Shown here piece by piece: positions 23,074 through 35,438 of a DNA stretch of 64,000 nucleotides (the stretch's first letter is position 1; every line of letters begins with the position of its first letter). Under the pieces are notes generated by a model. The model saw only the letters and a list, made by a program, of their open reading frames with translations, made no database searches and was not told the origin of the DNA. Origin of the DNA: Pontibacter cellulosilyticus (GTDB taxonomy: Bacteria; Bacteroidota; Bacteroidia; Cytophagales; Hymenobacteraceae); contig NZ_JACRVF010000001.1 in NCBI RefSeq assembly GCF_014306105.1, positions 620,001 to 684,000 on the forward strand, written 5' to 3'. Both the position numbers and the translations under genes were made by a program.

Positions 23074-24405
23074 CTATTGGAGAAGATTCTTATAAGCCTG
23101 CTCCACCTTCTCAAAATTAAAAGCTTCTAACACCTTCTGCATCTGTGCGGCAATCTCAACGTTGCAAAGGTTTCCTATACTTCCCTCGTGGGTGTGCATT
23201 ACAGCTTCTGGGGTAGCAAAATTACCTGCTTCTATACTTTCTCCAACAGCCTTGTAAGCATCACGGAATGGCATGCCCTCCAGCACCAGCGCGTTTACAG
23301 CATCCACACTGAACAGGTATTTATACTTTTCATCCTCCAGGATGTGCTCGCGCACCTGTACTTCCTGCATCATATAGGCCATCATCTGTAAGCAGCTTTT
23401 TAGCTCGGCAAAGGCAGGAAACAGATTTTCTTTTAACAGTTGCAGGTCGCGATGATAGCCACTTGGCAGGTTTATGAGCAGCATGGAAATTTCGGTTGGC
23501 AAGGCCTGCAGCTTGTTGCACTTGCCACGTAGCAATTCAAAAACATCAGGGTTCTTTTTGTGCGGCATAATGCTGGAGCCAGTGGTAAGGTGGGCCGGCA
23601 AGGTAATAAAGCCGAAGTTCTGGCTCATGTAAAGGCACAGGTCCATGCTCATTTTAGCCAAAGTAGCCGCCACAGAAGCCATGGCCGTTGCCACTATTCT
23701 TTCAGATTTACCGCGACCCATCTGTGCATACACCACGTTGTAGTTCATACTTTCAAAACCCAGCAGATCGGTAGTCATCTGGCGGTTAAGCGGGAAAGAA
23801 GAACCGTAGCCGGCAGCTGAACCCAATGGGTTTTTGTCGGCAATCTTGTAGGCAGCCAGCAGCAGTTGCATATCATCCACCAAACCCTCGGAGTAGGCGC
23901 CAAACCATAAACCGAACGAAGAAGGCATGGCGATCTGCAGGTGCGTGTAGCCGGGCAACAGCACATTCTTATACTTTTCGCTTTGTTCCTGAAGTACATC
24001 GAACAGCGCTTTTGTGTCTTGTACCAGTTCCTGCAACTGGTGGCGGAAGTATAGCTTTAGGTCTACCAGTACCTGGTCGTTACGGGAACGGCCGCTGTGT
24101 ATCTTCTTACCGGCCTTACCTACACTACGTGTCAGTTCCAGCTCTACCTGCGAATGAATGTCCTCTACGCCCTCCTCAATGGTAAAATCACCGTCCTCTA
24201 TGCGTTTGTAGATGTTCTTCAGCTCTGCCTGCAGCACCTCTAGCTCTTCGGGAGAAAGCAGGTTTATACTTTGCAGCATGCGTGTATGCGCCAGAGAGCC
24301 CAATACATCAAAGCGGGCAAGCTCCATGTCCAGTTCTGCATCTTTGCCTACTGTAAATTTTTCTATTTCTGCAGCTACGCTTGTGCCTTTCTGCCAAAGC
24401 TTCAT
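23074..24405 (-). CDS. argH: Argininosuccinate lyase
   Basis: A 443-residue enzyme splitting argininosuccinate into arginine and fumarate, the last step of arginine synthesis. Diagnostic segments are EDIHSQVELELT, KIHSGRSRNDQVLVDLKL (substrate binding) and TTGSSIMPHKKNPDVFELLRGK, the fumarase/aspartase-family signature with the catalytic Ser loop. It is the last gene of the arginine operon and ends at a hairpin terminator. It starts 67 bases after argE. Confidence 0.96.
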   Translation of the reverse strand: MKLWQKGTSVAAEIEKFTVGKDAELDMELARFDVLGSLAHTRMLQSINLLSPEELEVLQAELKNIYKRIEDGDFTIEEGVEDIHSQVELELTRSVGKAGKKIHSGRSRNDQVLVDLKLYFRHQLQELVQDTKALFDVLQEQSEKYKNVLLPGYTHLQIAMPSSFGLWFGAYSEGLVDDMQLLLAAYKIADKNPLGSAAGYGSSFPLNRQMTTDLLGFESMNYNVVYAQMGRGKSERIVATAMASVAATLAKMSMDLCLYMSQNFGFITLPAHLTTGSSIMPHKKNPDVFELLRGKCNKLQALPTEISMLLINLPSGYHRDLQLLKENLFPAFAELKSCLQMMAYMMQEVQVREHILEDEKYKYLFSVDAVNALVLEGMPFRDAYKAVGESIEAGNFATPEAVMHTHEGSIGNLCNVEIAAQMQKVLEAFNFEKVEQAYKNLLQ

Positions 24406-24472
24406 AATTCAATTTGGAATTAGTGATTGAGTGGATGAGCGAATACATGTTGCATGTTCATCCACCGTACTA

Positions 24473-25537
24473 TTATTTTATTACTCTCTCAAGTAGATCA
24501 ATGTATAAGTTGATACCTTCCTCAATTTCGTGCAGGTATATGTATTCGTCGGCCATGTGCGAACGGCCTGAGAAACCTGGGCCCATTTTAAGAGATGGTA
24601 TTGGTAAAAGTGCCTGGTCGGAAGTAGTTGGAGACCCATAAGTATTTCTGCCCATCTGCAAGCCGGCTTGCACCAGCGCGTGTTCCATTGAAATCGAGGA
24701 TGGCTTTAACCTGGTAGAGCGGGGCTTTACTTCTGCCTTTACGTGTTGCTGTATTGTCTCCAGCACCTCCTCCATGGTATAAGCATCAGTTAAACGCACA
24801 TCAACAGTAAACTGGCAGTTATCCGGCACCACGTTATGCTGTGTTCCGGCATTGATCACGGTCACGCTCATCTTCACCGGCCCAAGGTGCTCGGACTCTT
24901 TCTCAAATTTATACTTTTGAAACCAGTTGATATCTTCTAAGGCCTCATAAATAGCATTTATACCTTCTTCGCGGGCAGCGTGTCCAGCCTTGCCTTTTGC
25001 AACGCAATCCAGCACCAGCAAGCCTTTCTCGGCTACTGCCAGGTGCATTTCGGTGGGCTCTCCCACAATTGCCGCTTCCAGCTCACCCAGTTGGGGAAGT
25101 ATAAGCTCAATGCCATTTCTGCCAGAAATCTCTTCTTCGGCAGTAGCAGCAAGTACTAAGTTATATTTTAAATTTAGCTGATTATTGAAGTATAAAAAGG
25201 CAGCGATTAAACTAACTAGGCATCCACCGGCATCGTTACTCCCCAAACCATATAGTTTTCCATCTCCTATACTTGCCTCGAAGGGGTTGCGTGTATAGCC
25301 GGAATTCGGTTTTACAGTGTCATGGTGTGAATTTAAAAGTATAGTGGGCAGCTGCTGGTTATAGTGCTTGTTAAATGCCCATACATTGTTCAGTTGCTGG
25401 TGCACCTCAATGCCGTGCTTTTTCAGAAAATCGGCAAGTATAGCTGCCGTTTTATCTTCTTCTCTGCTCAGCGAAGGCGTTTGGATCAGCTGCTGCAGTA
25501 GCTTTACTGCCTGTTGATATAGGTATTGCTGCTCCAT
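24473..25537 (-). CDS. argE: M20-family deacylase, probable N-acyl-citrulline/ornithine deacylase
   Basis: A 354-residue di-zinc amidohydrolase. Metal-site segments are LLNSHHDTVKPNSG, SNDAGGCLVS (bridging Asp) and LAATAEEEISGRNG (catalytic Glu-Glu); a late His contact is in SGRSHMADEYIYL. It also has the M20 dimerisation domain. In this operon the acyl group must be removed after the transcarbamylase step, so the expected substrate is N-acetyl- or N-succinyl-citrulline rather than acyl-ornithine. That is inferred from the neighbouring argF' type. The start codon overlaps the argB stop by one base (TAATG), showing tight coupling. Confidence 0.88.
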   Translation of the reverse strand: MEQQYLYQQAVKLLQQLIQTPSLSREEDKTAAILADFLKKHGIEVHQQLNNVWAFNKHYNQQLPTILLNSHHDTVKPNSGYTRNPFEASIGDGKLYGLGSNDAGGCLVSLIAAFLYFNNQLNLKYNLVLAATAEEEISGRNGIELILPQLGELEAAIVGEPTEMHLAVAEKGLLVLDCVAKGKAGHAAREEGINAIYEALEDINWFQKYKFEKESEHLGPVKMSVTVINAGTQHNVVPDNCQFTVDVRLTDAYTMEEVLETIQQHVKAEVKPRSTRLKPSSISMEHALVQAGLQMGRNTYGSPTTSDQALLPIPSLKMGPGFSGRSHMADEYIYLHEIEEGINLYIDLLERVIK

Positions 25538-26331
25538 TAATTCAGGCTGATGGTGGTGCCGGCAAAAGTAGTGTCTGTTTCTTCTATACTTAATAGTGCT
25601 TCGGCCTCTCCTATTAATACCTGGCTTACTCCCTGATTTAGGGCAGCAAAGGCATTGTCGAGCTTGGGTACCATGCCTGCCGATACGATACCTGCGACTT
25701 TCAACTCTTTATACTTTTGCTGATCAATGAAATGAATAACTGAGCCTTCATCATCCGCATCAGCCAGTACACCTTTCTTTTCGAAGCAGTACATCAGCGT
25801 CACTCTATACTTTCTAGCTAAAGCTGTGGCTAGTACAGAGGCAATGGTATCGGCATTGGTATTCAGCATAGAACCGTTACCATCATGGGTAAGCGGAGCA
25901 AAAACAGGAGTAAGTCCGGCCTGAAGTATGGCATCCAAAGCAGTTATGTTTATACTTTCGTTACCGGCTACATCTCCGGCATAACCATAATCAACTGCAC
26001 CTAAAGGACGTTTAGTAGCACGTATTGCATTGGCGTCTGCCCCTGTCATGCCGATGGAATTGCAGCCAAGCGCCTGCAGCTGCGCTACTACCTGCTTGTT
26101 TACAAGGCCTCCATACACCATGGTTACCAGTTCAAGCGTTTCGGCGTCAGTTACTCTGCGGCCTTCTACCATTACCGGTGTAATGCCCAGCCGCTGGCCA
26201 ATAGCAGAGGCTATCTTGCCCCCGCCATGTACCAACAACTTGGGCCCCTGCAGCTTCGAAAAATCAACCAAAAAACTATGAAGCCGCGAAGGGTTGTCCA
26301 GTATATTACCGCCTATTTTTACTATAATCAT
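25537..26331 (-). CDS. argB: N-acylglutamate kinase
   Basis: A 264-residue amino-acid kinase that phosphorylates N-acetylglutamate (or N-succinylglutamate). MIIVKIGGNILDN begins the nucleotide-binding fold. LVHGGGKIASAIGQRLG, GLVNKQVVAQLQALG and the later MLNTNADTIASVLATAL are the characteristic substrate and phosphate-binding segments. Upstream codons to 26388 are open, but the family start is ATG 26331. The 166-base gap before it contains a dispersed repeat, the largest interruption in the operon together with that between argC and argD. Confidence 0.95.
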   Translation of the reverse strand: MIIVKIGGNILDNPSRLHSFLVDFSKLQGPKLLVHGGGKIASAIGQRLGITPVMVEGRRVTDAETLELVTMVYGGLVNKQVVAQLQALGCNSIGMTGADANAIRATKRPLGAVDYGYAGDVAGNESINITALDAILQAGLTPVFAPLTHDGNGSMLNTNADTIASVLATALARKYRVTLMYCFEKKGVLADADDEGSVIHFIDQQKYKELKVAGIVSAGMVPKLDNAFAALNQGVSQVLIGEAEALLSIEETDTTFAGTTISLN

Positions 26332-26378
26332 TGCCTTGAATTCAAATTTTAGCTCCGCACACCGTTTCATCCCCCTGC

Positions 26379-26464
26379 CCCCCTTCAAAGGAGAACTTAT
26401 TCTGCAGATGTAAAATCAATTATTGAGAAACTACTCGCGCTGAATGTCCCCTTTAAAGGAGACA
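26379..26464. repeat. Small inverted-repeat element between argF' and argB
   Basis: CCCCCTTCAAAGGAGAAC at 26379-26396 and TGTCCCCTTTAAAGGAGACA at 26445-26464 lie about 50 bases apart and resemble each other in inverted orientation. The second is itself a palindrome around CCTTTAAAGG. The first is repeated exactly at 28710-28727. No coding sequence is present. Confidence 0.65.
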
Positions 26465-26497
26465 TATGGATGAATTATACTTGAGAACAATTAGTAA

Positions 26498-27448
26498 TTA
26501 CAAAGCCTCCAGCATTCGCTTTAGTACTGCCTGCGCCGCATACGTACGGTTATTGGCCTGCTGCAATACCAGTGAGTTCTGGCCGTCCAGGATCTCATCG
26601 TTAAGCTCTACATTTCGGCGTACCGGCAGGCAGTGCATTACTTTAGCATTGTTAGTCAGGGCAAGCTTATTATCTGTCATCATCCAACCTGCTCCCTCAG
26701 TTAGTACTTTGCCATAGTCGTTGTAACTGGACCAGTTCTTTACATATACAAAGTCCGCGTTTTGAAGCGCCTCATCCTGATTTGTGGTTACAATTGCGTT
26801 CTCTGTGAATTCCTCTGCCAGTTCATACCCCTCTGGGTGCGTTACCACCAGTTCCACATTAGCCTGTCCCATCCACTCTGCAAAAGAGTTGGCCACGCAT
26901 TGCGGAATTGCCTTTACATGCGGTGCCCAGGTAAGCACTACTTTTGGCTTTTTCCCTGTAGCCTTGTTTTCTGTAATAGTAACTAAGTCTGCTAGGCTTT
27001 GCAGCGGGTGGCGTGTAGCAGATTCTAAACTGACAATCGGAATACCGGAGTACTCAATGAACTGCTGCAGTAGCTCCTCATTATAGTCTTCGTCACGGTT
27101 CTGAAGTTTAGGAAAAGAGCGGATGCCAAGTATGTCGCAGTATGCTCCCATTACACCGGCTGCTTCTTTTATATGCTCTACAGTAGTACCATTCATGATG
27201 GCACCTTCCTGCGTTTCCAGTGCCCAGCCTTCTTTGTCCAGGTTCATCACCATTACGTTCATACCCAAATTCAGAGCAGCTTTCTGGGTGCTTAAGCGGG
27301 TACGCAAGCTTGGGTTCAGGAAGATAAGCCCCAGCGTTTTGTTTTCGCCGAGGTGTTTATACTTGTAAGGATTCTGTTTCAGATGCAGCGCCTCGTTTAC
27401 CAATTCCTCTACATTGGCTACATCTTTTACTGACGTATACTTTTTCAT
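26498..27448 (-). CDS. argF': N-acyl-ornithine carbamoyltransferase (acetyl- or succinyl-ornithine)
   Basis: A 316-residue transcarbamylase. LNPSLRTRLSTQKAALNLGMN holds the carbamoyl-phosphate loop S-L-R-T-R. HPLQSLADLVTI and VMHCLPVRRNVELNDEILDG complete the family. KEGWALE, with Trp75, is the mark of the acyl-ornithine enzymes (AOTCase/SOTCase) in place of the ordinary ornithine enzyme. The residue near position 90, which separates acetyl (Glu) from succinyl (Pro) specificity in studied proteins, appears to be Val here, so the acyl group is not settled. Its ATG overlaps the argD stop by one base. Confidence 0.9.
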   Translation of the reverse strand: MKKYTSVKDVANVEELVNEALHLKQNPYKYKHLGENKTLGLIFLNPSLRTRLSTQKAALNLGMNVMVMNLDKEGWALETQEGAIMNGTTVEHIKEAAGVMGAYCDILGIRSFPKLQNRDEDYNEELLQQFIEYSGIPIVSLESATRHPLQSLADLVTITENKATGKKPKVVLTWAPHVKAIPQCVANSFAEWMGQANVELVVTHPEGYELAEEFTENAIVTTNQDEALQNADFVYVKNWSSYNDYGKVLTEGAGWMMTDNKLALTNNAKVMHCLPVRRNVELNDEILDGQNSLVLQQANNRTYAAQAVLKRMLEAL

Positions 27449-28602
27449 TAAACTGCTGCTAATTCTGCCTTTAAAAGAATTGATTCAAATGCCTCCAGGA
27501 AAACTTTGCTTTCACGGGCTCCAATGTTAAGTGGAGGCAATAAACGTAGCGTATTCTTGTCTGACGATGAGCCAGTAAAGATTCCATACTCCTCCAACAG
27601 TTGCTTGCGTATGCCTGCACAAGGTTGGTTAAGCTCTACTCCTATCATCAGGCCTTTGCCGCGTACATCCTTCACACCTGGCATATGACGCAGTACGTCC
27701 ATTATCCAGTTGCCTATGTTCTTTGCATTCTCTGTCAGGTTTTCCTGCTCCATTACTTCCAGCACGGCCAGTGCCGCCACACAAGCCAGGTAGTTACCGC
27801 CAAATGTAGTGCCCAGCATGCCGTGCTTTGCTTCAATGGCAGGGCTTATAAGCACACCGGCAACCGGAAAGCCGTTGCCCATACCTTTTGCCATTGTAAT
27901 CAAGTGAGGCTTAACATCCGTGTGTTGATGGGCAAAGAATTTACCTGAGCGGCCGAATCCTGACTGTACTTCATCCAGAATAAGTAGCGCACCTACCTTT
28001 TCACAACCGGCAGAAACTGCCTTCAGGAATGTAGCTTCAGGCATATGTACTCCTCCTACACCTTGTATGCCTTCTACAATGACAGCAGCTAACTCCTGAC
28101 CGTGCTCATTCAGCGCATTGGCAAAAGCATTCAGGTCGTTTAAAGGAAGAAATATGATGTTATCCGTTTCGTTGATCGGTGCCTGGATCTTAGGATCGTC
28201 GGTTGCAGCCACAGCAGCAGATGTACGTCCGTGGAAAGCTCCTTTAAAGGCAATTACTTTTTTACGACCTGTATGAAAAGACGCCAGCTTGAGCGCATTC
28301 TCATTTGCTTCGGCTCCGGAATTGCACAGAAAAAGGCTATAGTCATGATAGCCACTCAGAGCACCTAATTTTTCGGCAAGCTCCTGCTGAAGGGGCATTT
28401 TTACAGAGTTGGAATAGAAGCCGATGTCGTAAAGCTGACGGGCAATTCTTTTAACGTAGTGAGGGTGGCTGTGACCAATGGAGATAACGGCGTGGCCTCC
28501 GTAAAGGTCCAGGTAACGTTTGCCGTTCTCATCCCAAACATAAGCGCCCTGTGCTTTTACAGGAGTTATGTCGAAAAGCGGATATACATCAAACAGATTC
28601 AT
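27448..28602 (-). CDS. argD: N-acyl-ornithine aminotransferase (class III, PLP-dependent)
   Basis: A 384-residue aminotransferase. LYGGHAVISIGHSHPHYV and FLCNSGAEANENALKLA are N-terminal family motifs. LLILDEVQSGFGRSGKFFAHQ holds the PLP Asp, and ITMAKGMGNGFPVAGVLIS contains the Schiff-base Lys. It transfers the amino group from glutamate to N-acyl-glutamate semialdehyde. The position between argC and argF' supports the arginine role over a catabolic ornithine or GABA aminotransferase. There is a 132-base gap to argC upstream, occupied in part by a short repeat. Confidence 0.93.
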   Translation of the reverse strand: MNLFDVYPLFDITPVKAQGAYVWDENGKRYLDLYGGHAVISIGHSHPHYVKRIARQLYDIGFYSNSVKMPLQQELAEKLGALSGYHDYSLFLCNSGAEANENALKLASFHTGRKKVIAFKGAFHGRTSAAVAATDDPKIQAPINETDNIIFLPLNDLNAFANALNEHGQELAAVIVEGIQGVGGVHMPEATFLKAVSAGCEKVGALLILDEVQSGFGRSGKFFAHQHTDVKPHLITMAKGMGNGFPVAGVLISPAIEAKHGMLGTTFGGNYLACVAALAVLEVMEQENLTENAKNIGNWIMDVLRHMPGVKDVRGKGLMIGVELNQPCAGIRKQLLEEYGIFTGSSSDKNTLRLLPPLNIGARESKVFLEAFESILLKAELAAV

Positions 28603-28709
28603 ATTTGATATTTAGATGTAAGAAGTAAGACAATAGATGAAGTACTCGACGTACATAGGTTTAATTTTTATATTGTTAAAATGTCGTTTTCATGCTGTGT
28701 ATAAAGAAT

Positions 28710-28727
28710 CCCCCTTCAAAGGAGAAC
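28710..28727. repeat. Second copy of the arginine-operon repeat word
   Basis: CCCCCTTCAAAGGAGAAC matches positions 26379-26396 exactly over 18 bases. It lies between argC and argD, 8 bases from the argC stop. Confidence 0.7.
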
Positions 28728-28734
28728 CTTATAC

Positions 28735-29742
28735 TTAAAATGCACTGGCCTTCAGTTTTAGGCCGGCAGTTTCCTCCAACCCAAACATCAGGTTCATGTT
28801 TTGCACTGCCTGGCCAGATGCTCCTTTAAGCAGGTTATCTATCAGGCTTGTGATGACAAGTTTATCATCATGCTTTTCCAGGTACAGGAGGCACTTGTTT
28901 GTATTGGTTACCTGCTTTAGATCCGGAATAGAATCTGCAATCGTTACAAAAGGGTGGCTTCTGAAATAGCTTTTGTACATTTGCTCTGCCTCCTCTATAC
29001 TTAATGTGCTATTAAGGTAACTCGTGCAAAGTATGCCTCTTGTAAACGGACCGCGGTAAGGCACAAAGTTTATTTCAGCCAAATCATCCTGCTGCATACC
29101 AGCCAGTGTGCGTCTTATCTCGTTGAGGTGCTGGTGCTGCAATACTTTATAGTTCGAGATATTGCCGTCGCGCCAGCTGTAGTGCGAAGTAGCACTCAGG
29201 CTCTGCCCCGCACCGGTGCTGCCTGTAATACCGCTTATATGTATTTCCTGCTGTAGCTGGTTCTGCTCTGCCAGCGGCAGCAGTGCCAGTTGTATGGCAG
29301 TGGCAAAACAACCCGGGTTGGCAATGTTCTGTGCCTGCTTTATCTCTTCCCGCTGAAGCTCTGGTAAGCCATATACGAAAGTCCTGCCGGAAGCCTCAAC
29401 AGTTGCTTCTCTTATACTTTCATTCCAGCGGTAATCCTGGCTCAGGTCGATTATTCTTATACTTACCGGCAACTTCTCAGCTTCTACAAACTTTTTAGCT
29501 TCGCCGTGTCCAACGCACAGAAACAGCACGTCCACATCTTCCTGCAGTGTATCTTTAAAGTATAACTCAGTATCACCTAGCAGGTCTTTGTGCACCTCGT
29601 AAACTGGCTTTCCAGCCTGGCTTTTGCTGTGCACAAAGGCTATCTCTACATTGGGGTGGTTTGTGAGCAGACGTAGCAGCTCGCCGCCTGTATAGCCAGC
29701 GCCGCCTACAATACCTGCTTTTATACTTACTCCGTTGCCCAT
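28735..29742 (-). CDS. argC: N-acyl-gamma-glutamyl-phosphate reductase
   Basis: A 335-residue NADPH-dependent reductase making N-acyl-glutamate semialdehyde. AGIVGGAGYTGGELLRLLTNHP is the dinucleotide-binding start. ANPGCFATAIQLALLPL contains the catalytic Cys and GSTGAGQSLSATSHYSWR the substrate region. PFTRGILCTSYL and the C-terminal KGASGQAVQNMNLMFG, with the family's final motif, follow. ATG 29742 overlaps the end of argG by 16 bases. Confidence 0.95.
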   Translation of the reverse strand: MGNGVSIKAGIVGGAGYTGGELLRLLTNHPNVEIAFVHSKSQAGKPVYEVHKDLLGDTELYFKDTLQEDVDVLFLCVGHGEAKKFVEAEKLPVSIRIIDLSQDYRWNESIREATVEASGRTFVYGLPELQREEIKQAQNIANPGCFATAIQLALLPLAEQNQLQQEIHISGITGSTGAGQSLSATSHYSWRDGNISNYKVLQHQHLNEIRRTLAGMQQDDLAEINFVPYRGPFTRGILCTSYLNSTLSIEEAEQMYKSYFRSHPFVTIADSIPDLKQVTNTNKCLLYLEKHDDKLVITSLIDNLLKGASGQAVQNMNLMFGLEETAGLKLKASAF

Positions 29743-30935
29743 GCTGCTTCGGTGTTGTTTACGCTATGGTATAGCTTGGTTTGATTTCCAAAAATCTTGG
29801 CAAAGCCTTTCACATCGTCAGATGTCCAGGCGCGGTTCATTTCGCCGTAGCTGCCAAATTTATCACTCATCAGGTCGTGTACACTTTCTATACCCTCTAC
29901 CTGGAAGCGGTAAGGCGCCAGCAACACGTATACTTTACCTGTAACGTTCTGCTGCGTGCTTTCCAGGAAGGCTTCAATGTCGCGCATAGTTGGGTCCAAC
30001 AGCTGTCCCTCGTGCAGCCAATTGCCGTACCAGGCCGAAAGCTGGTCTTTCCAGTACAGTTGCCACTTGGTTAGCACGTGCTTTTCTAACGTATGGTGTG
30101 CTTTGATGATAACTAAAGGAGCTGCCGCCTCAAATCCAACACGCCCTTTGATTCCAATGATCGTATCACCTACGTGTATATCGCGACCGATGGCAAACGG
30201 TGCTGCCAAAGCCTGCAATTGTTGAATAGCTTTTACCGGAGTATCATACTTGTTGTCGTTTATGCCCACCAGTTCGCCTTTCTCGAAATGCAGTGTTACG
30301 TGCTCCGGTTCGTGCTTGCTTAATTGTGTTGGGTACGCCTCTTCCGGCAACGGCAAGTTCGATGTAAGTGTTTCCTTGCCTCCTACGGATGTTCCCCAAA
30401 TGCCTTTGTTAATGGAGTACTGCGCTTTGGCAAAATCCATCTCTACACCGTGCTGCTTCAGGTACTCAATCTCCTCTTCACGCGACAGGCGTTTGTCACG
30501 GATTGGTGTAATGATCTCAACCTCCGGGATCAGTGCCTGGAATACCATGTCGAAACGCACCTGGTCGTTGCCTGCGCCTGTGCTGCCATGTGCAACAAAA
30601 TCAGCGCCTACACTTTTGGCATGCTGTGCAATGGCAATGGCCTGCGTAACGCGTTCAGCACTAACGCTAAGCGGGTATACGTTGTTCTTAAGTATATTAC
30701 CGAATACAAGGTACTTAATGCAGCTGTTGTAGAAGTTCTGTGTCTCGTTCAGGTGCGTGTGCTGCTTTACACCCATGGTATAAGCACGACGCTCAATTTC
30801 CTTCAGTTCCTCTTCTGAAAAACCGCCTGTGTCTACAATGGCAGAGTATACTTCCAATCCTAATTCCTGCGCCAGGTAAATGGCACAGTATGATGTATCT
30901 AAACCGCCGCTAAAGGCTAAAACTACTTTTTTCAT
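29727..30935 (-). CDS. argG: Argininosuccinate synthase
   Basis: A 402-residue ATP-dependent ligase joining citrulline and aspartate. VLAFSGGLDTSYCAIYL holds the SGGxDTS pyrophosphate loop. VAHGSTGAGNDQVRFD, which binds citrulline/ATP, and GTSVGGKETLTSNLPLPE follow. It is second in the arginine operon, 16 bases after the GNAT gene and overlapping argC. Confidence 0.96.
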   Translation of the reverse strand: MKKVVLAFSGGLDTSYCAIYLAQELGLEVYSAIVDTGGFSEEELKEIERRAYTMGVKQHTHLNETQNFYNSCIKYLVFGNILKNNVYPLSVSAERVTQAIAIAQHAKSVGADFVAHGSTGAGNDQVRFDMVFQALIPEVEIITPIRDKRLSREEEIEYLKQHGVEMDFAKAQYSINKGIWGTSVGGKETLTSNLPLPEEAYPTQLSKHEPEHVTLHFEKGELVGINDNKYDTPVKAIQQLQALAAPFAIGRDIHVGDTIIGIKGRVGFEAAAPLVIIKAHHTLEKHVLTKWQLYWKDQLSAWYGNWLHEGQLLDPTMRDIEAFLESTQQNVTGKVYVLLAPYRFQVEGIESVHDLMSDKFGSYGEMNRAWTSDDVKGFAKIFGNQTKLYHSVNNTEAAWATE

Positions 30936-30951: not shown

Positions 30952-31653
30952 TTAAGAAGCGTTACGCTCGTTACTGTTCATGTTTTGCTGGCCAGGGCGC
31001 ATGCGGTGGCGTATCCAGCGATCATTTATACTTATTACTTTGGCTGTACTTTGCTTTTCAGGAGCTGGCATCTCAACTCTCTGCACAACCGGTAAAGCCA
31101 TAAAGTTTTCTTCCTTGGTCGGGTCGTAAAGCATGGCGGTGCACAGGCAGTTTGTGCGGTTTTTGCTTTGCAGGATCTCAAAATTCACGCAGCTACGGCA
31201 GCCTTTCCAGAACTCCTCGTCATCAGTCAACTCAGAGTATGTAACAGGTTTATAACCCAACCCGGAGTTGATACGCATAACAGCAAGGGCTGTAGTAAGA
31301 CCAAAGATCTTGGCATCCGGGTACTTCGTAAGGGAAAGCTCAAATATCTTCTGCTTTATCTGGCGAGCCAGTCCGCTTTTACGCAGCTCCGGCGACACGA
31401 TCAATCCGGAATTAGCCACATACTTATCGTGCCCCCATGTTTCGATGTAACAGAAGCCAGCCCAGGTACCATCCTGGTGTAGGGCGATAACTGCTTTGCC
31501 TTCCATCATCTTCTGGGCGATATAATCCGGTGAGCGTTTGGCAATACCAGTACCACGCGCCTTAGCCGAAGACTCCATCTCATTACATATCTGTAACGCA
31601 TACTTAACATGCTGCCCATTGGCAACTGAAACAATGAAATCGAATTGATTCAT
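30952..31653 (-). CDS. GNAT acyltransferase heading the arginine operon, candidate N-acylglutamate synthase
   Basis: A 233-residue GNAT-fold protein. VIALHQDGTWAGFCYIETW and the acetyl-CoA loop region SGLIVSPELRKSGLARQIKQKIFELS fit the fold. A cysteine group C152-x2-C155-x13-C169-x-C171 (GCRSCVN...NCLC) looks like a zinc or redox site. The operon lacks argA and argJ, while all later steps are present. A GNAT beside argG recurs in arginine operons of Bacteroidota as I recall (for example Bacteroides). The simplest reading is that it makes N-acetyl- or N-succinyl-glutamate, but this is not proven by sequence. It is the first structural gene and follows a structured leader. Confidence 0.8.
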   Translation of the reverse strand: MNQFDFIVSVANGQHVKYALQICNEMESSAKARGTGIAKRSPDYIAQKMMEGKAVIALHQDGTWAGFCYIETWGHDKYVANSGLIVSPELRKSGLARQIKQKIFELSLTKYPDAKIFGLTTALAVMRINSGLGYKPVTYSELTDDEEFWKGCRSCVNFEILQSKNRTNCLCTAMLYDPTKEENFMALPVVQRVEMPAPEKQSTAKVISINDRWIRHRMRPGQQNMNSNERNAS

Positions 31654-31676: not shown

Positions 31677-31949
31677 TGGCTGTGCAATGCACAGCACCAA
31701 CGTTAAAAATTAAAGTATAAATACAGCTGCTTTAGGCAATACTTTTGCCTTTGGGTACACTGTTGCGAAAAGCTGTTGTGGAAGTATGACTACCGCATAG
31801 GTAGTCGGTAAAGCTGTAGGCTACCGCCTGTAGCGGACCGTAAGTGACGAGGCCCTAAAAACTATCCTTGCGTAAATAATAGAAAAAGTCGCACCCTCCA
31901 TGGCTGGAGCGTGATTTATCAAAGATGATAAAGACGACGTTTTTTTCAT
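31677..31949 (-). promoter_or_regulatory. Structured 5' leader of the arginine operon, candidate attenuator
   Basis: About 270 transcribed bases between a possible promoter and the GNAT ATG hold a chain of hairpins. In plus-strand coordinates these are TTTATCA/TGATAAA (31915-31932), CTCCA/TGGAG (31896-31909), GGACC/GGCCC with one G-U (31835-31855), CCGC/GCGG (31824-31836), GACTACC/GGTAGTC (31788-31806), AGGCAA/TTGCCT (31734-31750) and GCTGTG/CACAGC (31679-31695). Two copies of ACAGCT in the RNA (31812-31817 and 31771-31776) can each pair with AGCTGT (31723-31728), giving exclusive folds; the second encloses the AGGCAA hairpin and is followed by U-rich sequence. With the Arg-rich leader ORF this suggests attenuation. 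The fold is by eye only. Confidence 0.6.
31821..31949 (-). CDS. Candidate arginine leader peptide (42 aa)
   Basis: Reads ATG 31949 to TAG 31821 on the minus strand, beginning MKKTSSLSSLINHAPAMEGA and ending RIVFRASSLTVRYRR. Arg occupies five of the last 15 residues (28, 32, 39, 41, 42) using AGG, AGG, CGC, AGG and CGG, and the final two codons before stop are both Arg. It lies 167 bases before the first gene of the arginine operon. The last codons overlap hairpin arms that compete with downstream folds. This is the pattern expected of a ribosome-sensing leader, and the his operon in this window uses the same device. Function inferred. Confidence 0.55.
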   Translation of the reverse strand: MKKTSSLSSLINHAPAMEGATFSIIYARIVFRASSLTVRYRR

Positions 31950-31993
31950 TTCAGTAATTAATGCTTGGGATTACTTATACCCCTATTACGCTG

Positions 31994-32025
31994 CAAAGTT
32001 TTCTGAATAGTTTATTTATATCCAA
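31994..32025 (-). promoter_or_regulatory. Tentative promoter for the arginine leader
   Basis: On the minus strand TTGG (32022-32025) is followed after about 20 bases by AAACTTTG (31994-32001), one mismatch from TAnnTTTG. Transcription would begin near 31988 and give a leader of about 335 bases. Confidence 0.35.
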
Positions 32026-33917: not shown

Positions 33918-35246
33918 TTACTCTTTATTAGCTGATGTGATGTCGCCAAGGTATTTGCCTTTGTGGCGGCCATATACCAGGTGCTTTGGGGTACCGATGA
34001 GTTGAGACCCGTAAATGCCTGAGTGCCCTGAAAACAGATAGGCTACAACGCAAGCAAGCGCCATATACACACTGCTGTCTGCGCCAAACAACTCAATAGC
34101 CATAATGGTACTGGTGAGCGGTGTGTTTGTGGCCCCGGAAAAGACTGCCACCAATCCCATGCCAGCCAGTAATGCCATCGGTAACGGTATAGCACCGGAT
34201 AAAGCATTGCCAAGTGTGGCACCTGTAAAGAAAAGCGGCGTTACTTCACCCCCTTTAAAGCCAGCTCCCAGTGTAAATGCAGTAAGCACAACTTTTACAA
34301 GAGAATCGTACCAGGGCAAAGCTTGCTCAAAGGCAGCCAGGATAGTGGGCACGCCCAAGCCAATATACTTGGTGGTTCCCATTGCCCAGACTACTACGGC
34401 AATTACTAATCCTCCAAGCAACGGACGGAACGGTGCATAGCCAATGTACTGCCTGAACTGCTGCGAGAAGAAGTGCGTGCTTCTAGAAAAAACCATCCCC
34501 GCCAACCCAAAAATAGCACCAGCAACCAACGCATAAAATATAGCTATGGGGGATAACTCAGGAACTACCGGAATGGCAAAAGAAGTATGGCCAACACCCC
34601 ATGCGAAGCAGACATAATCGGCAATAACGGCAGCCAGGAAACTAGGTAAAAGCGCCTCATACCTAAGCCGGCCAAGTATAAATACCTCTAGCCCAAAAAC
34701 AGCGCCGGCCAGTGGTGTACCAAACAAAGAGGAAAACCCTGCGCTGATCCCTGTAATGATAAGTACCTTTCTGTCGCGGGGCCGCAGTTTAAAGATCTTG
34801 GACAGCTGATCAGCCAGGGCTCCACCCATCTGCACTGCGGTACCCTCTCGTCCGGCTGAACCACCAAGCAGGTGCGTTACTAGGGTGCCTAACAAGACCA
34901 GCGGTGCCATCAGGAATGGAATGATTTGCTTAGGTCTTTGAATCTCTTCCAACAGCAGGTTATTGCCTTTGGCAGCACGGCCGGCAAAATAGTGGTACAG
35001 TAATCCCACGAACAACCCTCCAATTGGCAGCAGCCAGATGATCCAGGTATTTGCTTCGCGGTAATCTGTTACCCAATCCAATGCCACCAGGAAAAAAGCG
35101 GAGGCAGAGCCCGCCATGCAGCCCACCAGCACACAGATCAGCAGCCATTTTAAAGTATAAAGTATGGCAGTTGCCTGCTCTCCGGAAGAAAGCATTTTGC
35201 TCAGGAATTTTGAAAAGGCAAGATTGCGGGGCGTACGATTTTTCAT
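33918..35246 (-). CDS. ClC-family chloride channel/antiporter without CBS domains
   Basis: A 442-residue membrane protein. The selectivity signatures are GSAGREGTAVQMGGALADQ (the G-R-E-G-x-x motif with gating Glu), GAGFKGGEVTPLFFTGATLGNALSG and the later GATNTPLTSTIMAIELFG. GREGT in place of GREGP, and no C-terminal CBS pair, place it apart from the second ClC gene at 50.9 kb. Transport of Cl- or fluoride-like anions is possible; the usual fluoride ClC motif is not obvious. A good -33/-7 promoter lies just upstream of the ATG. Confidence 0.9.
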   Translation of the reverse strand: MKNRTPRNLAFSKFLSKMLSSGEQATAILYTLKWLLICVLVGCMAGSASAFFLVALDWVTDYREANTWIIWLLPIGGLFVGLLYHYFAGRAAKGNNLLLEEIQRPKQIIPFLMAPLVLLGTLVTHLLGGSAGREGTAVQMGGALADQLSKIFKLRPRDRKVLIITGISAGFSSLFGTPLAGAVFGLEVFILGRLRYEALLPSFLAAVIADYVCFAWGVGHTSFAIPVVPELSPIAIFYALVAGAIFGLAGMVFSRSTHFFSQQFRQYIGYAPFRPLLGGLVIAVVVWAMGTTKYIGLGVPTILAAFEQALPWYDSLVKVVLTAFTLGAGFKGGEVTPLFFTGATLGNALSGAIPLPMALLAGMGLVAVFSGATNTPLTSTIMAIELFGADSSVYMALACVVAYLFSGHSGIYGSQLIGTPKHLVYGRHKGKYLGDITSANKE

Positions 35247-35290: not shown

Positions 35291-35438
35291 GCCTTCTGTA
35301 GGAGTCATCAGCGCTGCCTGGGCAGGCGGTTACAGGTGGTACCCCATCACCTAATAACAAAGGTAAATTTTATACTTAATTATACAAAAAGTAGCTCCAA
35401 CGGATGATGCACGAATCCTTAAATTCGTATGTATAAGC

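Follow-up and report, generated by a model that had tools for sequence, protein, structure and literature searches.

The leader ORF and arginine operon of Pontibacter cellulosilyticus

The window, that is, the whole stretch of 64,000 nucleotides of Pontibacter cellulosilyticus DNA analysed here, carries on its minus strand an arginine operon headed by a short leader ORF (Table 1). The genes follow directly 3' of the leader and on the same strand in the order GNAT-argG-argC-argD-argF'-argB-argE-argH (argG to argH, 23074-30935), bearing out the statement of an earlier note on this DNA that the leader stands directly upstream of the operon. The ORF with five Arg among its last 15 residues described in that note is likewise present; it ends in RIVFRASSLTVRYRR, and its stop codon is separated from the GNAT start by 167 nt. 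In front of the leader lies a TTG...TTTG pair, a candidate promoter of the type that forms the Bacteroidota consensus. Such a pair (TTG-N(17-26)-TTTG, the TTTG lying 30-90 nt 5' of the leader's ATG) is found in 65 of the 66 Pontibacter and Rufibacter leaders described below, with a gap of 25 in 59.

The leader peptide of the window had no match to any Pfam family at E ≤ 0.1 and so gave no sign of a DUF2618 core, a result of limited power with a query of 42 residues. At the RNA level, no Rfam family reached its gathering score in the leader, and a search over 14 loci including that of the window gave three matches, all under the gathering score and from unrelated families.

Table 1. Features of the arginine locus in the window and of its predicted leader RNA. 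Pair counts are base pairs with two-sided changes in alignments of 39 and 64 leaders.
Feature	Position	Strand	Remarks
Candidate promoter, Bacteroidota type	31994-32025 (TTG 32023-32025, TTTG 31994-31997)	minus	Upstream of the leader ATG
Leader ORF	31821-31949	minus	42 codons, ATG to TAG; end VRYRR
Outer A-rich/U-rich stem	31883-31943 (31935-31943 with 31883-31891)	minus	Encloses the next two hairpins; 0/8 pairs (39), 1/8 (64)
Hairpin UUUAUCAU/UUGAUAAA inside the ORF	31915-31932	minus	Recurring; 99% of cells paired (39 and 64); 1/8 pairs (39), 2/8 (64); modest support
Hairpin CAC.../...GUG inside the ORF	31892-31913	minus	Recurring; 6/7 pairs (39 and 64); strong support
Hairpin CUAU.../...AUAG inside the ORF	31862-31882	minus	Recurring; 6/8 pairs (39 and 64); strong support
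Stop-codon hairpin GGC-GGUA-GCC	31819-31828	minus	Recurring; invariant in 39/39 and 64/64 aligned leaders
UAUGC-loop hairpin (UAYGY class), 3' of the leader stop	31788-31806	minus	Recurring; 4/6 pairs (39), 6/6 (64); strong support
Hairpin GCUGUGC/GCACAGC	31679-31695	minus	25 nt before the GNAT start; a hairpin at that place in Pontibacter subgroup consensus folds
GNAT-family protein, first operon gene	30952-31653	minus	Pfam and NCBIfam scores under their cut-offs
argG	29727-30935	minus	Score under NCBIfam cut-off
argC	28735-29742	minus	Score over NCBIfam cut-off
argD	27448-28602	minus	Score under NCBIfam cut-off
argF' (N-acetylornithine-carbamoyltransferase-like gene)	26498-27448	minus	Score under NCBIfam cut-off
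argB	25537-26388	minus	Score over NCBIfam cut-off
argE/dapE-family gene	24473-25537	minus	Score under NCBIfam cut-off
argH	23074-24405	minus	Score over NCBIfam cut-off

Conservation of the leader ORF in Pontibacter and Rufibacter

A BLAST search with the leader identified it in 38 of 49 other Pontibacter genomes (39/50 with that of the window). A covariance model (R1) was built from 33 of these 39 leaders and searched against 204 genomes of the family; not every unmatched genome is shown in the result, in which genomes are ordered by genus and the Rufibacter block is flanked by other genera. The leader was found in 50 out of 50 Pontibacter and 16 out of 16 Rufibacter genomes. All 66 leaders retain an intact ORF of 42-44 codons ending in TAG, and their lengths differ by whole codons only, so that the peptide conservation in relatives by which the earlier note proposed to check its reading extends over two genera. 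Of 39 leaders, all have an interruption in one of the two remaining forward frames, and 32 have one in the other. Position -2 is Arg in every one of the 66 leaders, always encoded by AGG, and position -4 is Arg in 62 of them, with at least four codons in use, mostly CGC, CGA, AGG or CGT.

The substitution pattern gave no coding signal: in 39 sequences, pN/pS was 0.86 in the ORF frame, compared with 0.60 and 0.91 in the two alternative frames. Because RNA structure also constrains the sequence, this ratio neither proves nor rules out translation. Third codon positions of the leader ORF are no freer than first positions. A pure RNA element as the sole explanation, considered because of this third-position constancy, was rejected, as the ORF is held in 66/66 leaders and Arg-rich ORFs are found in other families.

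Structure of the leader RNA

The leader RNA of the window is predicted to fold better than shuffled sequences (z -3.11; one shuffle out of 100 did equally well). When 39 leaders are aligned, the five hairpins marked in Table 1 recur, four of them with two-sided base-pair changes. Counting the outer stem, such changes affect 17 of 40 pairs, a number that none of 500 shuffles attained, and 97.4% of cells are paired versus about 42-52% when the partners are slid. In 64 leaders from Pontibacter and Rufibacter, 21 of 40 pairs show two-sided changes; this alignment (69 sources given, L013 and L032 left out, L098-L102 without a match) was fitted to the covariance model and leans towards structure. 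The chain of hairpins that had been proposed around the ORF is supported by the folding score and by this covariation, and the stems hold in the 64 aligned leaders of two genera, as the earlier note expected of a functional element. The outer A/U stem, being nearly invariant, is only weakly supported and remains unproven. The loop of the stop-codon hairpin holds the U and A of the leader's stop codon, whose G belongs to the 3' arm. In these two genera, the same nucleotides thus carry both the ORF and the predicted fold.

Two alternative pairings had also been suggested for the window. The competition of two ACAGCT copies for one AGCTGT is real there but is not conserved, differing already in the two nearest relatives (L002 and L003). 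The pairing of the last leader codons (GCGGTAG) with the GACTACC arm of a hairpin is real in the window, but it needs a final CGG codon, which only 12 of the 66 leaders have. In Rufibacter, a GGCUGU/GCAGCC hairpin is seen shortly before the GNAT start, comparable to the GCUGUGC/GCACAGC-like hairpin of Pontibacter.

Arg-rich leaders across Bacteroidota

To survey other families, GNAT loci were taken, by sequence, from two sources: named genomes, and a phylum sample comprising 394 genomes, 159 of which have GNAT. A total of 155 loci were surveyed, the phylum part being 89 loci chosen from among the matches listed. Of these, 19 in which argG is not the next gene were set aside, as was L117, a Rufibacter locus included in the earlier counts, leaving 135. 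At each locus, a short ORF starting with ATG, GTG or TTG and ending 50-230 nt before GNAT was sought, and Arg was counted in its last 12 codons. At least three Arg were found at 106 of the 135 loci (mean 10.4 and maximum 15 in 20 shuffles; 13 in antisense), and at least four at 78 (shuffled 1.7). With ATG starts only, the corresponding numbers are 68/135 (shuffled 3.9) and 46/135 (shuffled 0.7). Among the 20 amino acids, Arg alone is enriched, every other amino acid reaching at most two loci (ATG starts, at least four residues). Many of the 135 loci come from close relatives, with two near-identical pairs; when one locus per cluster is taken, at least three Arg are present in 104/133 loci at 97% identity, 64/88 at 80% and 47/67 at 70%.

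The position of the Arg codons is also kept. In ORFs picked on positions -3 to -12 only, Arg occupies position -2 in 81 of 102 (shuffled 6.3%). All six Arg codons are used in the other-family leaders, and in the last eight positions of the 68 such leaders with ATG starts and at least three Arg, no residue except Arg reaches half. Leaders end, for example, in SRRNRFTYRV in Algoriphagus, in LRRFRNSFRA in Mongoliibacter and Indibacter and in FRYLSRRPRI in Chitinophaga, and ends TRRRP and RIPRRR occur in other groups of the phylum sample. Outside Pontibacter and Rufibacter, the body of the putative peptide therefore varies, and the C-terminal Arg residues, foremost the penultimate one, are kept across families.

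The distribution is uneven. In the phylum sample, Arg-rich leaders were found at 49 of 71 loci with argG next. Among the loci of this sample, no Arg-rich ORF was found in groups f25 (0/4) and f42 (0/3), few were found in f44 (2/6) and f26 (6/13), and in the one further genome sampled from the family of the window, the ORF end has just two Arg. At four loci of genus g134 (L249, L251, L257 and L258), a different conserved small ORF lies about 220-315 nt before GNAT; it ends in SPEVR(T/M)LSL or SPEVRML, without an Arg-rich tail.

Leaders in genomes without ArgR

ArgR is generally regarded as the regulator of bacterial arginine biosynthesis. No match to PF01316 (ArgR) was found in the genome of P. 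cellulosilyticus, the control being positive in 9 of 14. Among the 394 phylum genomes of the same draw, 137 have ArgR and 159 have GNAT, and only seven have both, compared with about 55 expected if the two were independent; 152 of the 159 genomes with GNAT thus have no ArgR match. In two of the seven, the ArgR match is weak. In the other five (L309-L313), it lies just upstream of GNAT-argG on the same strand, in the place of the leader, and none of these five loci has an Arg leader (0/5). ArgR resembles the proposed leader in exerting arginine-dependent control of arginine genes and, in these five genomes, in its position, and differs from it in being a protein repressor. Since much of the mutual exclusion of ArgR and GNAT follows clades, it counts as few independent events. 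Genome comparison shows the conserved ORF, its Arg codons and their position, its place at the head of the operon and its occurrence where ArgR is missing.

Elements downstream of the leader

Stop hairpins, UAYGY hairpins and terminators outside Pontibacter and Rufibacter were counted at 68 other-family loci, each with an ATG leader of at least three Arg. The stop codon lies in a hairpin loop in 32 of these 68 leaders at a score of at least 8, versus 14.9% of shuffles. A hairpin of at least 5 bp with a UAYGY loop is present in 25 of 50 Pontibacter (shuffled 0.2) and 16 of 68 other-family leaders (shuffled 0.1), and in none of the 16 Rufibacter leaders. A second covariance model (R2), combining the stop hairpin and the UAYGY hairpin, was built from 34 of 44 rows, those left out being mainly altered stop hairpins or close relatives. 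In the chosen 34 sequences, 6 of 7 pairs of the UAYGY stem show two-sided changes, which 34 of 500 shuffles also reached; the other four measures were reached by none. These sequences were partly picked for showing the hairpin, so the pair counts are not an unbiased sample.

Across the order, R2 gave a single match in each of 32 genomes out of 192, including several that had helped to build the model, and among the matches listed it missed Pontibacter G019 and Rufibacter G054. GNAT and argG are present at 29 of the 30 R2 loci fetched. In the genome of P. cellulosilyticus, one good match was obtained (E 6.1e-10); the other six are weak (E ≥ 1) and have no GNAT or argG nearby, so R2 seems not to be a general module there. 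Some leaders bearing the module have a single Arg near their end (L293 and L305). In four leaders of another family that end in RRRP or RRP (L237, L246, L250 and L267), a conserved AGGTGAGTCC occupies the place where the UAYGY hairpin stands elsewhere.

In folding predictions for 28 leaders with the ribosome masked, loss of the stop hairpin beneath the ribosome is built into the calculation. Without the ribosome, the predicted probability of this hairpin among the leaders listed ranges from about 0 to 1, being 0.89 in the window and at most 0.24 in L035, L071, L159, L208, L223, L228 and L250. With the ribosome on the -2 codon, the UAUGC hairpin has a predicted probability of 0.04 in the window and 1.0 in the two nearest relatives. 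Masked folding revealed no shared second switch among the leaders listed, and neither it nor the subgroup consensus folds gave a conserved alternative partner of the stop hairpin. Pairing of the UAYGY loop with a CACATA-like stretch early in some leaders, seen by eye only, was dropped because UACGY loops would mismatch.

No good intrinsic terminator with a U run lies between the leader and GNAT in the window, and the weak point conceded at the outset, the lack of a strong terminator with a long U run, stands. Terminator-like sites were detected in 9 of 50 Pontibacter leaders (shuffled mean 2.8, maximum 6), in excess of chance yet at differing places, in 1 of 16 Rufibacter leaders (shuffled 0.3) and at 3 of the 68 other-family loci (shuffled 0.8). 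A classical intrinsic terminator as the output of an attenuator is therefore not general in any of the three sets and was rejected. In the other families, the sequence that follows the hairpins is rich in C and poor in G, with a median C/G of 2.14 versus 1.17 upstream of the leader; the corresponding values are 1.39 versus 1.22 in Rufibacter and 1.18 versus 1.07 in Pontibacter. Base composition thus hints at Rho in the other families, as a possibility only, and not clearly in Pontibacter.

Comparison with known leader peptides

The leaders trpL, hisL and leuL are ribosome-mediated attenuators of amino-acid operons. The arginine leader resembles them in having a short ORF in which codons for the end product lie close to the 3' end, and in placing the stop codon within the loop that is closed by a hairpin formed with the last codons. 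It also keeps the amino acid and not the nucleotides, a trait of attenuators, as seen from the six Arg codons in other families and the at least four codons at position -4. It differs from them in that the end product is arginine and that no U-run terminator is general in these leaders. In addition, the Pontibacter and Rufibacter ORFs contain conserved hairpins, and several groups have the UAYGY-loop hairpin further downstream.

Arg codons of a short leader also report arginine supply in orf34/SpeFL of the speF operon, where, as far as the accessible part of that report describes, Rho and RNA structure likewise act downstream (PMC6386406). According to the same part, however, orf34/SpeFL controls ornithine decarboxylase in gamma-proteobacteria, its sensing codons are at positions 12-13 and the Arg beside its stop is dispensable (PMC6386406); it carries a DUF2618 core, to which the window peptide has no match. 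Leader-peptide Arg codons also sense arginine limitation in rbfL of Staphylococcus aureus, which differs in acting on a regulator of biofilm, the ribosome-binding site of which it blocks, and in that limitation leads to repression and not to activation (PMC13009471). In Flavobacterium psychrophilum, of the same phylum, clues to leader peptides 5' of amino-acid biosynthesis operons have been described, and the available text names no arginine leader (PMC9723704). Other uORF motifs have been described (PMC8632094), and a comparative survey of attenuation from 2010 (10.1134/S0026893310010164) is cited in PMC4833913. Arginine control by T-boxes is reported in other species, and no conserved arginine RNA element in Actinobacteria, in the part of the study at hand (PMC1262725). 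In the open-access literature, as represented by titles and the openings of abstracts, no leader peptide for arginine biosynthesis was present among the matches listed; an earlier mention is not excluded.

Proposed mechanism and alternative explanations

We consider it probable that the leader peptide, through its terminal Arg codons, reads the arginine supply for the arginine operon. This rests on sequence comparison without expression data; the 66/66 intact ORFs and the Arg-rich leaders at 106/135 loci support the arginine-sensing leader peptide put forward in the earlier note. The same arrangement is found across much of the phylum, mostly without ArgR, so the ribosome itself probably senses arginine. 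Under this model, the operon transcript would start with a short translated leader ending in Arg codons. When arginyl-tRNA is scarce, the ribosome would halt on the terminal Arg codons and cover the end of the leader, preventing the stop-codon hairpin, and the operon would be expressed. When arginine is plentiful, the ribosome would finish and leave, the stop hairpin would form and expression would fall. Translation and stalling are inferred here, as is the output step, which is inferred only weakly and would probably be Rho-dependent termination or translation control, not an intrinsic terminator.

The main rival explanation is ligand-induced arrest of the nascent peptide, in which binding of free arginine or of a pathway intermediate would cause the finished peptide, with its Arg-x-stop end, to stall the ribosome at the stop codon. 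TnaC with tryptophan and the fungal arginine attenuator peptide with arginine are precedents for such arrest. The penultimate Arg is far more constant than the other Arg positions (every leader of the two genera, 81/102 elsewhere), as arrest would have it, but in Pontibacter and Cyclobacteriaceae-like loci the -2 codon doubles as an arm of the stop hairpin, so its constancy could be explained without arrest. Similarly, 35 of the 50 Pontibacter leaders end in Arg-Pro-stop, and L293 and L305 have this Arg as the only one near the end, which fits arrest; yet Arg is the sole residue to reach half within the last eight positions of the 68 other-family leaders, and at the 106 loci with at least three Arg these are distributed along the final 12 positions, the pattern expected from codon reading. 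We therefore regard arrest as unlikely. The RNA might instead be an aptamer, that is, a riboswitch whose ligand is arginine or a related metabolite, with the ORF as a by-product. This would be compatible with the covarying hairpins and invariant stretches that extend over about 170 nt in all 66 leaders of the two genera, and with third codon positions no freer than first. However, matches to the fold are strong only in these two genera whereas the Arg-rich ORF is far wider, no Rfam family matches and the ORF stays open in 66/66 leaders with codon-sized indels, which makes an aptamer highly improbable. Hardly tenable in our judgement is a constitutive leader ORF that merely aids translation or RNA stability without sensing arginine. 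The absence of a terminator and of a measured response would be consistent with it, and leader ORFs near structural genes have been proposed, in the accessible part of one study, to raise expression by reinitiation (PMC4833913). Nevertheless, Arg alone is enriched at the leader end before the arginine operon, and the 167 nt to the GNAT start are far beyond the peak of 11-14 bp given for Bacteroidetes in the same part of that study (PMC4833913).

If the leader does read arginine supply by its codons, its presence at the operon head would answer how Bacteroidota without ArgR (152/159 GNAT genomes sampled) sense arginine. Codon reading also predicts which codons and hairpins matter, and the leader would be an attenuation-like one that seems to work without an intrinsic terminator. 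A wider hypothesis, which we advance only tentatively and as possible rather than probable, is that in much of Bacteroidota arginine control is exerted not by ArgR but by a leader whose penultimate Arg codon lies in the stop hairpin; that the UAYGY hairpin of several groups is a new regulatory element recognised by Rho, by the ribosome or by a protein; and that the codons of the Pontibacter and Rufibacter leaders also build a fold of 170 nt, one sequence being selected as both message and structure.

Further matches in the order and in the window

Outside Pontibacter and Rufibacter, R1 gave only weak matches, the best of which (E 4.9e-6, a rough value) is not at an arginine gene; some fall at an arg locus by way of the 3' hairpins. 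Of six places with weak R1 matches in the order that were inspected as candidate leaders, five (L314-L318) have other neighbours and were taken as chance matches, and one (L319) is a GNAT-argG locus. Elsewhere in the window, the sole Rfam match is a fluoride riboswitch (RF01734, 45.7 bits) at 35292-35360 on the minus strand, just 5' of an ORF (33918-35246, minus strand) that presumably encodes a ClC-type channel protein.
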